From IMG/VR virus record IMGVR_UViG_3300025889_000482, positions 1 through 33,698 of that record: a stretch of DNA of 33,698 nt; one strand, written 5' to 3'. The stretch's first letter is position 1. Each line of letters opens with the position of its first letter. The notes under the pieces were generated by a model. That model worked only from the letters and a program-made list of their open reading frames with translations. It searched no databases and had not been told where the DNA came from. This document shows, in pieces, positions 24,165 through 29,265 of the stretch. The stretch comes from a virus. A program made the translations under genes and the position numbers.

Positions 24165-24312
24165 CCTTTGGGTAATAAACTTCTACGTGGCTTCGGCAAT
24201 TAGGACAGTGGAAATAGGTCACCATTGCATATTTATCTGCTCCGGGTTCCCACTCCTCTAAGTCACTATCGCTGTTCCAGATCAACGGAGTTTGGCAGTG
24301 CCAACAATTCAT
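24133..24312 (-). CDS. Small zinc-ribbon protein in replication operon
   Basis: A 59-residue protein: MNCWHCQTPLIWNSDSDLEE, then YFHCPNCRSHVEVYYPKD and an acidic tail (DDEDEEDHLR). Two CxxC pairs (Cys3/6 and Cys36/39) mark a zinc ribbon. The ATG overlaps the UvrD-like stop as ATGA. It could be an adaptor in replication or repair; this is inferred from location. Confidence 0.78.
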   Translation of the reverse strand: MNCWHCQTPLIWNSDSDLEEWEPGADKYAMVTYFHCPNCRSHVEVYYPKDDEDEEDHLR

Positions 24313-25826
24313 AGGTCATAGCTCCTTGAGACATCTTCAGCATCGACGATAAACAGGTTTTGCTTGGTCCGTGTGACGCCGACATAAAACACACGGTGCA
24401 TATCATCTGGGTTAATCCGCATTTCTTCGTCTGCGGCTGGACTGAGGTCCGTGAACAACACAACGTTGTCCGCTTCACCGCCCTTTGACCCGTGGATCGT
24501 GGACGCCGTGATGCGAGGGATGCCATTGAACTTTTCGCCACGGCGCAACAAGGCTGTTATGTAGGCCCGATCTGTTTCAGGTAGCTTGTCCATGGCTTCG
24601 GACCAGATCATTGAGTTATCGATTAGCAAACCGTAGTTGGCGCGTAACTCGTCCAGTTTTATTAGATCGTCATCATCCAGATTAGGCAGCTTTTTGAAGC
24701 CTCGTTTGACGCGATCACCTACCGACATGAAGCTGTAAATCTTACGAGCGGTCGCACCGGAAACTTCGTTTCCTTTACGCAACTGCTCCCAACCATTTAC
24801 GGCATCAGAAATTTTTTCACTGATGCTACGATGTCCGCGGTACGTGAACAGATAACCGTTTGATTTCAAGTCGTTAGCTACTGGCGTTAGCTGGTATCCT
24901 GCCTGCGACAAAATAAGCCAAGACCCTTGCGTCATGTCCAAAGAGTTAATAGTGTTGATCCGCGTCACGTTGCCCGGTTCCTCACGGGGTTCGTATTTTT
25001 TCGGAAACCTTCGGGCAATGCGACGCACGACACCCTCTGCAATTTTATGTACACGGCTTGGCACCCTGTAAGATTGGGACAGGATTTCTGATCCGCCGGG
25101 TAGATTGATGAACTGGTCCACGTCTGCGCCAGCCCAACGGTAGATGGCTTGGTCATCGTCGCCTGCGGCATACATGCGGTTGGAGTTGGTATCCAGTATG
25201 TGAGCAATGTCCCACTGCAAGGGGCTTAAATCCTGCGCTTCGTCAAGAAAGCAAAGGTCAAACTCAGGACAGAATTTGCCAGACTGATCGACAAAGGCTT
25301 GTAGCATGTCGGTGAAGTCGTAGAGGTTGAGCTTGTTCTTGTAATCCCGCAGGCAGGTATCGACGTAGTTAACTGTGTTCCAGTCTGGTTCGATATTGCT
25401 ACGATTGTATTGGTCCCGCAGCGACACCTTTCGGAGCCGCGCGAGGTTAATAAGCCCAAGGATTGGATCGTTAGATGATACCATTGTTGGGATGTCATCG
25501 TCAAAGTTTCCAGCCTTTGCGCCACCAAGCGATACACCGATGGCCTGACCCAGCTCTTTGTAGTTTTGCTCCTGCATAACCTGCTCTGGACGAATGTCCG
25601 TCATGGTCAGCGCCAGCGAATGCAGGGTGCGGAAGTAAATCAGGTCTTTCTTTGGGTCCAGACCAAACCTTGCTGCGGCGCGTTCCTTGGCTTCGTTAGC
25701 GGCTTTGCGAGTAAAGGCTAGGAAAGCAATCCTATGAGGATGCGTCCCCTTCTCCAGTGCATCGTCTACCATGTTTAGCAGGGTTGTAGTTTTGCCCGTG
25801 CCCGGCGGTCCAAAGATTCGAAACAT
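24309..25826 (-). CDS. UvrD/Rep-like superfamily 1 helicase
   Basis: A 505-residue SF1 helicase: Walker A GPPGTGKTT (residues 6-14), motif Ia AFTRKAANEA, Walker B DEAQD (195-199), motif III GDDDQAIYRWAGA (222-234), motif IV SYRVPSRV, motif V STIHGSKGGEADNVVLF and motif VI FYVGVTRTKQNL. All catalytic motifs are present. It is shorter than E. coli UvrD, with a small 2B region. It unwinds DNA in replication or recombination. GGAGG before ATG 25826 fixes the start, so its first 95 bases overlap the end of the upstream gene. Confidence 0.94.
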   Translation of the reverse strand: MFRIFGPPGTGKTTTLLNMVDDALEKGTHPHRIAFLAFTRKAANEAKERAAARFGLDPKKDLIYFRTLHSLALTMTDIRPEQVMQEQNYKELGQAIGVSLGGAKAGNFDDDIPTMVSSNDPILGLINLARLRKVSLRDQYNRSNIEPDWNTVNYVDTCLRDYKNKLNLYDFTDMLQAFVDQSGKFCPEFDLCFLDEAQDLSPLQWDIAHILDTNSNRMYAAGDDDQAIYRWAGADVDQFINLPGGSEILSQSYRVPSRVHKIAEGVVRRIARRFPKKYEPREEPGNVTRINTINSLDMTQGSWLILSQAGYQLTPVANDLKSNGYLFTYRGHRSISEKISDAVNGWEQLRKGNEVSGATARKIYSFMSVGDRVKRGFKKLPNLDDDDLIKLDELRANYGLLIDNSMIWSEAMDKLPETDRAYITALLRRGEKFNGIPRITASTIHGSKGGEADNVVLFTDLSPAADEEMRINPDDMHRVFYVGVTRTKQNLFIVDAEDVSRSYDL

Positions 25827-26235
25827 GTGGGTCTACCTCCTCAATTGCTGCAATCAGCTCTTTCAAGCTGCGCCGACCAAAATTTGGTTCTTTCATTACT
25901 TCTTCAGGCGAAACGGTGTCGATGAACAAAAGCAAGTTCAAATCTGCGACACCCATATTCAACAAGGCGTTTCTAACGCGTATCGAAATATCCAGTGCGC
26001 CAACCGGCATCTTGCCGTTTGTCTTCCTACTGGCTTCCGCCCAGCGTCTGTGCTTCATCAGGTTTTGTGCTTTGAAAACAATCTGACGAACACGCTCTCG
26101 GGAAATGTTATACTTTGCCCCGATGCTATCCAGCGTTCGCTTTTCAACAACGCGCATACGGTAGATAGCCCAATTCCGCTCTCGGTACGGTTCCGTAAAG
26201 TCATAGCGGTTTGTTCGAAATACATTCTCCGTCAA
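25732..26235 (-). CDS. Sigma-region-4 plus RNA polymerase alpha-CTD-like fusion protein
   Basis: TTG start at 26235 overlapping the primase stop, with AGGGGAGG seven bases upstream (167 residues). Residues 31-60 (EKRTLDSIGAKYNISRERVR QIVFKAQ) match sigma70 region 4.2. Residues 81-133 (LDISIRVRNALLNMGVADLN, later EPNFGRRSLKELIAAIEE) match the RNA polymerase alpha C-terminal domain, including the equivalents of the DNA-contact residues Arg265 and Asn268 (Arg86, Asn89) and Gly296, Lys298, Ser299 (Gly120, Arg122, Ser123). It may redirect host polymerase. The last 30 residues overlap the UvrD-like gene and look unstructured. Confidence 0.82.
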   Translation of the reverse strand: MTENVFRTNRYDFTEPYRERNWAIYRMRVVEKRTLDSIGAKYNISRERVRQIVFKAQNLMKHRRWAEASRKTNGKMPVGALDISIRVRNALLNMGVADLNLLLFIDTVSPEEVMKEPNFGRRSLKELIAAIEEVDPHVSNLWTAGHGQNYNPAKHGRRCTGEGDASS

Positions 26236-27767
26236 AACGGTGCCTCCCCTTGGTTCCCAAACTGTGGTGGGTCGATTTCAATATCTACGCTGTCAAATGC
26301 AGGTATTTTCCACACACGTACTGCGCGGCCTTTGATCTTCAGAACAACGCTTTCACCGTTGATGTCACGCAAACGCTGGGCAATCTTGTGGGATTTGTAT
26401 TCAAAGAACTTGTTCTTACGCAGGAACGCTTCGAAGTCTTTCAGGCGGAAGTATGTAATCTCTTCCTCTTCGTCGGTCCAAGGGCGGCGGAGCAAGATTT
26501 CTTCTTTGTCTTGCGCTTGCTGTAAGTGACGGCAGAACTCTTCGAGGTAATCATAGAACTGACCACTGATGCTGGCATCCTGCGCCACTTCTATAATCGC
26601 GCTCTCGTTATCGCGCATTTCAGAAAGCAGTGTGCTGATGCGGCTTTCCCATTGCTGGTTGGCAACGGACCGCGGCATGAAGTTAAGTTGCTCCATGCAG
26701 ATATACTGGAACCGCTTCTGGTTCATCATCGCTTCTGTGTCTAACTCCAGAGGCTCCCCGTTGACGTCCATAAACCACACTGGGGGAGTAGAGTTATACT
26801 TTCGCAGGTTCGCGATTGTAGCCCCTGCTACAGCGGCTCCTATGCCATTCTTTCTGGTGCGGCATAGCTCCTTGTTGCAGTAGGCGTTGATTGGAGCGTC
26901 GTTGCATTTGTAAGCATAGTCTTTGCGCTGGACCTGCTTGGCAACTATGTTGACCTCCGGCAGTGGAAGCGGCGGAGATAGGTACTCCATATTGTATTTA
27001 AGGATTTCGGATTCCCAACTATCTGGATAGGCTTTTCGTAAATAAACCCCGATGTTGAATAACCCATTATTGCGGCCTCCTTCGCTGATTCCCATCTTAC
27101 AAAGTATCTGTAGACAGGGCGGGCCATCCTTCAGTAGTTCAGTCTCGCCGCTACCTACTACTTGCAGCTTAACAACTTCTTCAGGGGTTTGGACAAATTT
27201 ATCGTACAATCCGAAAAATTCTTCTATTGACGCGCTGGTTCCGTCATCCAGAAACGCGTAACGCAAACCCTCTTCGTGGTTATAATATGGCAGGTTCAGA
27301 AAGTTACCGACATCACCACGGTCCAAGTGTAACTTTACCTGCTTTGGGAATATCTCGCTCTCCCCATAGCCAAGGGCCGCGGACATATGTTGCAGAGCCT
27401 TCTGCATGTCCCGGGCTTCTATCCAATCCTTGGTGAAGAGGAAGCAGTGTGCCCCGCCAGACTTTGAGCGGCACACGACGAGCGGCAAATTCAGCCGACG
27501 TATTTTTTCTATTAGAAGTTTGTGGTCGAGCGGATACTGATCGATGTCGATGCAGCCCCACTTGCACATGTTATCTTCGTTAATTGGAATGATGCCTAGA
27601 CCATTCCCCTTGCCCGACAGGTGGTTTTCCCACAGCTTCGCGGTCCGCGGTTCCCGTAGTACGCCCGCTTTACCTTTGGCTTTGCCGTTGGTTCCTGTTT
27701 TTTCTATTTTGAAGTAGCCGTAGGCTTCTTTCAGTCCATCAAATATGGACGCAAATTTCTCTAGCAT
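26232..27767 (-). CDS. Archaeo-eukaryotic-type primase (primase-polymerase-like)
   Basis: ATG 27767 with GGGGG five bases upstream gives 511 residues; longer starts run into the terminator hairpin. The N-terminal AEP core has motif I CIDIDQYP (Asp74, Asp76), motif II RSKSGGAHCFLF (His107) and motif III around KLHLDRGD, with EIFPKQ between. The middle (about 225-320) is a PriCT-like helical domain ending in KDYAYKCN and CNKELCRTRKNGIG, which may bind metal. It is close to TOTE-type and phage AEP primases and would lay primers for the PolA-like enzyme. It follows the terminator, so readthrough or a weak promoter must express it. Confidence 0.88.
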   Translation of the reverse strand: MLEKFASIFDGLKEAYGYFKIEKTGTNGKAKGKAGVLREPRTAKLWENHLSGKGNGLGIIPINEDNMCKWGCIDIDQYPLDHKLLIEKIRRLNLPLVVCRSKSGGAHCFLFTKDWIEARDMQKALQHMSAALGYGESEIFPKQVKLHLDRGDVGNFLNLPYYNHEEGLRYAFLDDGTSASIEEFFGLYDKFVQTPEEVVKLQVVGSGETELLKDGPPCLQILCKMGISEGGRNNGLFNIGVYLRKAYPDSWESEILKYNMEYLSPPLPLPEVNIVAKQVQRKDYAYKCNDAPINAYCNKELCRTRKNGIGAAVAGATIANLRKYNSTPPVWFMDVNGEPLELDTEAMMNQKRFQYICMEQLNFMPRSVANQQWESRISTLLSEMRDNESAIIEVAQDASISGQFYDYLEEFCRHLQQAQDKEEILLRRPWTDEEEEITYFRLKDFEAFLRKNKFFEYKSHKIAQRLRDINGESVVLKIKGRAVRVWKIPAFDSVDIEIDPPQFGNQGEAPF

Positions 27768-27782
27768 TGGTGCCCCCATACG

Positions 27783-27820
27783 AAAAAAAAGTGGGGTATA
27801 CACAAGCGTATATACCCCAC
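27783..27820 (-). terminator. Intrinsic terminator inside the replication operon
   Basis: Leftward: perfect 10-bp stem GTGGGGTATA/TATACCCCAC (27820-27811 with 27800-27791), 10-base loop, then eight T (27790-27783). It lies 7 bp after the ssDNA-binding candidate and just before the primase, which suggests that the two upstream proteins are made in greater amounts. Confidence 0.93.
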
Positions 27821-29185: not shown

Positions 29186-29224
29186 CGTTTTTCTCCTATC
29201 GTGGTTAAAGGCACCGTTCGGGCC

Positions 29225-29252
29225 TTGACAAAAACAGATAATATCTTATACT
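29225..29252 (+). promoter_or_regulatory. Rightward promoter for the SNF2-type helicase
   Basis: Perfect -35 TTGACA (29225-29230), 16-bp spacer, -10 TATACT (29247-29252). Transcription should begin near 29259, giving a 30-base leader with GGAG before the ATG at 29289. Confidence 0.85.
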
Positions 29253-29265
29253 CGGCTCTTGTCAA
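29238..29265 (-). promoter_or_regulatory. Leftward promoter for the replication operon
   Basis: Perfect -35 TTGACA (29265-29260), 16-bp spacer, -10 TATTAT (29243-29238). It faces and overlaps the rightward promoter; the two together span 41 bp. Confidence 0.8.

Follow-up and report, generated by a model that had tools for sequence, protein, structure and literature searches.

The locus

The window analysed here, the whole 33,698-nucleotide stretch of the virus record IMGVR_UViG_3300025889_000482 in IMG/VR, carries a gene for a 167-residue protein that joins a sigma-70 region 4-like helix-turn-helix (sigma4) to a domain resembling the C-terminal domain of the RNA polymerase alpha subunit (alpha-CTD). 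On promoters these two domains normally lie side by side, in different subunits of the polymerase. The fusion gene belongs to a minus-strand operon, where it stands between genes for a primase and a helicase:

26232-27803, minus strand: AEP-type primase gene (PHROG 21866), upstream of the fusion gene in the operon
26243-26251, minus strand: Shine-Dalgarno-like AAGGGGAGG, 7 nt ahead of the TTG start
25732-26235, minus strand: sigma4-alphaCTD fusion gene, 167 aa, whose TTG start overlaps the primase stop (TTGA)
26050-26184, minus strand: sigma-70 region 4-like domain, residues 18-62 (Pfam Sigma70_r4), with the recognition helix SRERVRQIV
25834-26025, minus strand: RNA polymerase alpha C-terminal-like domain, residues 71-134 (Pfam RNA_pol_A_CTD and fold)
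25735-25827, minus strand: C-terminal tail of the fusion, residues 137-167, lying over the helicase gene start and evolving in the helicase frame
24309-25826, minus strand: UvrD/Rep-type helicase gene (PHROG 1967), downstream, with a 95-nt overlap with the fusion gene

The 167-residue reading frame had been reported in an earlier note made from the sequence alone, and its coordinates and strand proved correct. Comparison of the fusion with its relative L002 gave dN 0.03 versus dS 1.15 for the sigma4 part and dN 0.07 versus dS 0.45 for the alpha-CTD part; with dN far below dS, both domains are under purifying selection. Together with a TTG start that has a Shine-Dalgarno-like motif and with coupling to the primase stop, this establishes that the fusion gene is real. 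A one-off or chance reading frame is ruled out by the IMG/VR relatives and the dN/dS values, and a frame artefact of the helicase overlap is ruled out because the helicase frame is followed by the tail alone. In the fusion frame, all 7 codon changes within residues 137-167 are non-synonymous (window versus L002; window versus L005). As changes there occur only in the helicase frame, the tail is probably without function, and the codon pattern suggests that the working fusion protein probably ends near residue 135. Across the 95-nt gene overlap (25732-25826), the tail of the upstream frame resembles a passenger of the helicase frame.

Identity of the two domains

The earlier note read the protein as a sigma-4.2-type helix-turn-helix (HTH) followed by an alpha-CTD that retains its DNA-contact residues, which is borne out by profile HMMs for both domains and by fold for the alpha-CTD. 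In hmmscan against Pfam, both models score above their curated cut-offs: Sigma70_r4 (PF04545) at E 4.6e-9 over residues 19-57 (36.1 bits, cut-off 24.1) and RNA_pol_A_CTD (PF03118) at E 1.3e-7 over residues 71-133 (31.7 bits, cut-off 23.8). The rpoA and sigma models of NCBIfam match the same halves, under their whole-protein cut-offs, and phmmer against PDB sequences matched the sigma4 chain 7kuf (E 4.6e-4, residues 20-68) and the alpha-CTD 3gfk (E 4.4e-4, residues 74-134). Pfam detected neither sigma region 2, which serves -10 reading and binding to core, nor the alpha N-terminal assembly domain in the 167-residue protein, which leaves region 4 as its sole sigma part.

For the second half, the DNA-contact residues of the alpha-CTD (the 265 determinant) are given in E. 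coli numbering. When mapped through an alignment to B. subtilis alpha, R265, N268, G296, S299 and E302 have identical counterparts in the window protein (R86, N89, G120, S123 and E126, respectively), K298 is conservatively replaced by R122, C269 is changed to A90, and the D259 equivalent is Ala. In the sigma recognition helix, R46, E47, R48, R50 and Q51 preserve the equivalents of R584, E585, R586, R588 and Q589. An H2-like stretch is also kept, which aligns with the 'RMR' region of sigma70 in a family-profile alignment.

Structure prediction agrees with this reading in that an alpha-CTD fold and an HTH are both present in the AlphaFold2 model (mean pLDDT 70.6, pTM 0.48), a moderate confidence at which the domain folds are readable and the mutual orientation of the domains, also on DNA, is not. 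Helices span residues 18-29, 35-42 and 46-71 in the sigma4 half, and four lie within 85-134 in the alpha-CTD half. Foldseek ranked alpha-CTDs at the top and sigma4 chains further down, with no E-value under 0.001, while the best 21 rows in VIA-align are alpha chains throughout (Z up to 8.7 over 65 residues, rmsd 1.9), with 1lb2_E at Z 8.3 on the alpha-CTD half. The first half matched the sigma chains 1rp3_A (Z 6.9, 51 residues), 6kqg_F (Z 6.8) and 1ku7_D (Z 6.6, 62 residues), which is no better than unrelated HTH chains (6.9-7.5); thus, both sequence and fold speak for the alpha-CTD, and mainly sequence for the sigma4 half. In a model of the distant fusion L131, sigma4 reached Z 6.9 and the alpha-CTD Z 6.4 over 64-66 residues, values equalled by unrelated HTHs.

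A slot of variable content

The slot occupied by the fusion, flanked by primase and UvrD helicase, is common to a large family of uncultured phages and is variable in content. An IMG/VR scan with the window primase found a relative encoded in at least 595 of at least 599 matched stretches, of which the nearest 80 were used, and a further scan that used the L114 primase supplied the best 80 of at least 595. The 144 loci in which both the primase and the helicase gene are complete reduce to 67 representatives after removal of near-duplicates. The slot holds a lone sigma4-like HTH in 35 representatives, a sigma4-alphaCTD fusion in 17, nothing in 10 and other content in 5 (including outgroups), counts that describe the neighbourhood of the two query phages (nearest 80 loci per primase scan) and not the whole family. 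On a tree that requires 10 Fitch changes, the fusions are scattered over some five positions, interspersed with lone-HTH and empty relatives, indicating that the alpha-CTD half has been repeatedly gained or lost, or that whole slot alleles have been exchanged.

The widest of three IMG/VR scans with the fusion protein or alignments returned 14 loci, including L092, which was rejected as a helicase-overlap match without a slot gene. No relative of the fusion was found among cultured phages at E 0.01, and at E 10 there were partial matches only, none over 80% of the query. A search of bacterial genome contigs with the fusion protein gave no relative either. Among 149 Planctomycetota genomes, a match occurred only in the source genome of the L114 contig, which bears the same phage genes and whose planctomycete label is not used as a host assignment.

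In L186 (3584-3835) and in L139-L144, the slot contains a different protein of 80-103 aa that starts MLKADGF, either alone or before the fusion gene; its length is similar to that of the slot protein labelled sigma-G in phage DSL-LC04. That 'Sigma-G factor' and the 'DNA-directed RNA polymerase' of MW202510, both near the same slot, were rejected as candidates on inspection by eye, which revealed no sigma4 motif.

All 27 distinct fusions match the window-group profile over both domains, in one piece in 25 cases and in two in L149 and L152; seven of these fusions, or twins of them, contributed to the profile. The -35-reading residues RER.RQ are present in 22 of the 27, as is the R265 equivalent (R86), and the N268 equivalent (N89) is found in 15. 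The sigma signature is lost in five SRQ/TRQ-type fusions and the R265 equivalent in L034 and L091. These counts place the window protein nearer to the full DNA-reading pattern than the family overall. PF03118 scores above its cut-off of 23.8 bits in L009 (24.3) and L149 (23.9), falls below it in L010, L034, L139 and L140, and gives no Pfam match in L114, L115, L118, L127 and L131, although L114 matches the window-group profile over positions 19-156 (E 1.2e-25, genome search). Searched against the PDB, the mixed family profile A4 recovered sigma4 chains (best E 1.5e-6) and alpha-CTD chains (best E 1.7e-5).

Lone HTHs are of two types, RERIRQI (17) and QRVQQI (39), in 74 loci of which the remainder are 7 fusions and 11 unclassed. 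Those of L014, L012, L030, L069 and L050 score above the Pfam Sigma70_r4 cut-off and that of L061 below it. The KQRV.Q forms carry Q in place of E585 and Q, W or S in place of R588; according to PMC2613000, reading at -33 becomes less strict with E585Q and R588H. Lone versions stop directly after the recognition helix, and the short ones (for example L014, 50 aa) consist of the H2-H4 equivalent only, with helices assigned by eye.

A face-to-face pair of promoter-like sites

Two opposed promoter-like sites share the DNA at 29225-29265, between the replication operon and a gene for an SNF2-type helicase:

29238-29265, minus strand: promoter-like TTGACA-16-TATTAT on the operon side, a possible target of the fusion
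29225-29252, plus strand: opposed promoter-like TTGACA-16-TATACT on the SNF2-helicase side, likewise a possible target

Both are among the three best promoter-scan matches of the window (11 of 12 positions), in a scan whose overall yield, 18 found versus 15.4 expected, is not above chance. Alignment revealed that the pair is conserved in relatives. The left box reads TTGAC plus a variable base in almost all of them. Across 57 non-redundant regions, a perfect TTGACA stands at the right box in 33/33 with a lone HTH, 6/13 with a fusion, 0/6 with no slot gene, 0/3 with 'other' content and 1/2 unclassed. The fusion phages L114, L115, L118, L130 and L131 lack a second perfect box, and L140 and L144 read TTTACA. 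Host sigma70 would in any case call for TTGACA boxes. Because the tree groups the box-less phages together and the box is missing from several fusion phages, the correlation of right box with slot type is a lead and not proof.

A hairpin, AAGGC..GCCTT, occupies 29208-29226 (minus strand), where the mRNA of the replication operon is predicted to begin. Each of its five pairs is canonical in 53-55 of 55 aligned relatives, with changes on both sides, and one pair varies among GC, GT, AT, TA and CG; a folding energy of -4 kcal/mol or lower is reached by 54 of the 55 leaders.

Proposed function and alternatives

According to PMC2988021, sigma touches the beta flap through parts within and close to helices H1, H2 and H5. 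The lone HTHs end after the recognition helix and the alpha-CTD occupies the H5 position in the fusion, which makes polymerase holding doubtful, while the H2-like residues kept in the fusion leave a beta-flap contact possible. The polymerase-holding parts, namely sigma helix 5 and the alpha N-terminal domain, thus appear to be absent or replaced. The domain reading of the earlier note stands. Its suggestion that the protein could hold or redirect host polymerase is doubtful, and for its other suggestion, that the protein may bind DNA at the origin, the place of the gene in a replication operon is the one point in favour.

A mechanism is proposed in which the fusion would be a DNA-binding regulator made from the two promoter-reading heads of host RNA polymerase without the parts that join the polymerase, sigma4 serving the -35 box and the alpha-CTD the AT-rich UP region. 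It would presumably be made together with the replication proteins and would bind host-type promoters, that is, TTGACA with AT-rich DNA upstream. PMC2613000 assigns the reading of -31 and -33 to R584 and E585 and places the proximal UP site (-45 to -37) beside the -35 box. The targets could include the two opposed promoters at its own operon, which would amount to autoregulation. With the host holoenzyme shut out by competition, early or host transcription might be lowered or switched. The lone HTH of sister phages would then represent the minimal form, to which the alpha-CTD may add a second DNA contact. We put forward tentatively, at somewhat less than an even chance, this polymerase-free promoter reader, a protein that would sit on -35/UP DNA and block or switch promoters of the host type. 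In its favour, besides the domains, the DNA-reading residues, the purifying selection and the promoter pair, the slot gene is the sole sigma4 match in each of 7 records and sigma region 2 (PF04542) is absent in 9/9 phage records. Against it, phages with an empty slot manage without the protein, the promoter correlation is confounded by ancestry, the D259 equivalent is Ala in the window, L034 and L091 have lost the R265 equivalent, and the H2-like residues of the fusion make a beta-flap contact possible. The broader proposal that the phage slot keeps the promoter-reading heads of host polymerase (sigma4 with or without alpha-CTD) as one-piece competitors, the polymerase's own repressor, is conceivable, and we hold it with still less confidence.

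If instead the sigma4 half docked on the host beta flap, in the manner described for minimal HTH sigma factors and jumbo-phage gp33, while the alpha-CTD gripped upstream DNA, the fusion could act as a minimal sigma factor or co-activator that recruits polymerase to phage promoters. Stand-alone phage HTH sigma factors are so interpreted in PMC7824862, and the H2-like stretch that aligns with the 'RMR' region fits such a role. This is nevertheless unlikely, given that a region-2 partner (PF04542) is absent in 9/9 phage records, that the short HTHs seem to be without H1 and H5, part of the flap contact as described in PMC2988021, and that the observed promoters are of plain host type. No single-subunit RNA polymerase was detected in 8/8 phage records, a weak result since the positive control was likewise without a match.

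The fixed place and translational coupling of the gene, with primase on one side and UvrD helicase on the other, could point to a replication factor. At the phage origin, it would attach to DNA that is AT-rich or promoter-like and bring the products of its two neighbour genes into position. An empty slot in 10/67 representatives and the fact that both domains are promoter readers by family make this a rather poor prospect. A decoy or counter-defence role, in which copied promoter-reading heads lure away proteins by which the host or a rival phage attacks sigma4 or alpha-CTD, would be in keeping with the variable slot content (10 Fitch changes) and with slot proteins that diverge more than their neighbours (L034: slot 61%, primase 90%, helicase 87%). 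The DNA-reading residues, dispensable for a decoy, are conserved, however, and we consider this role improbable.

Relation to known systems

With sigma-70 region 4 (PF04545; T. aquaticus sigmaA on -35 DNA, 1ku7) the fusion shares the HTH and the equivalents of R584, E585, R586, R588 and Q589, but unlike sigma-70 factors it lacks regions 2 and 3, has no clear H5 and carries an attached alpha-CTD. Similarly, it has the fold of the alpha-CTD (PF03118; 3gfk, 1lb2) and the equivalents of R265, N268, G296, S299 and E302, but differs from RNA polymerase alpha in lacking the alpha N-terminal domain, in having Ala at the D259 equivalent and in the attached sigma4. The same two domains lie side by side on -35/UP DNA in 3n97, chains of which are among the fold matches; there they belong to two separate subunits of one polymerase, whereas here they form a single phage polypeptide.

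Among phage proteins, the minimal single-HTH sigma factors and gp33 of jumbo phages are also stand-alone sigma4-type HTHs, in phages that rely on host polymerase, but they come from other phages and no alpha-CTD is mentioned in the available part of the report (PMC7824862). Stand-alone sigma4-like phage HTHs have already been described there. T4 AsiA and Alt/ModA act on the same contacts, sigma4/-35 and alphaCTD/UP; T4, however, remodels or modifies the host subunits with unrelated proteins, while the fusion consists of copies of the reading heads (PMC2988021 for T4).

The Caulobacter phage CcrColossus protein gp133 matches the alpha-CTD at E 3.1e-6, like the fusion, but its alpha-CTD is N-terminal and without sigma4, and it was rejected as a relative. 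In this jumbo phage (L113, 2474-3328) the alpha-CTD fronts a 284-aa protein encoded directly upstream of the endolysin gene. Also rejected were the 'RNA polymerase' of Papperlapapp (L112, 2168-3133), a repeated HTH array with no alpha-CTD, and the plasmid-encoded H110, an 816-aa protein with a sigma factor-like annotation, which matches Pfam Sigma70_r4 only, at E 0.1. Two BFVD entries named alpha C-terminal, A0A6J7WD60 and A0A6J5QDR9, align over 115-126 columns with rmsd above 12 and are possibly further fusions. A literature search by titles and abstract openings, with most subscription journals outside its coverage, found no paper on a sigma4-alphaCTD fusion.

A natural single-chain version, together with sister phages that have the first domain only or nothing, offers a ready comparison of the contribution of each domain to promoter recognition. 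With the fusion, host transcription might be controlled by a single protein, a route that is accessible to testing on one short promoter of known position. If the proposed mechanism is true, one small protein would do what T4 does with AsiA plus Alt/ModA.
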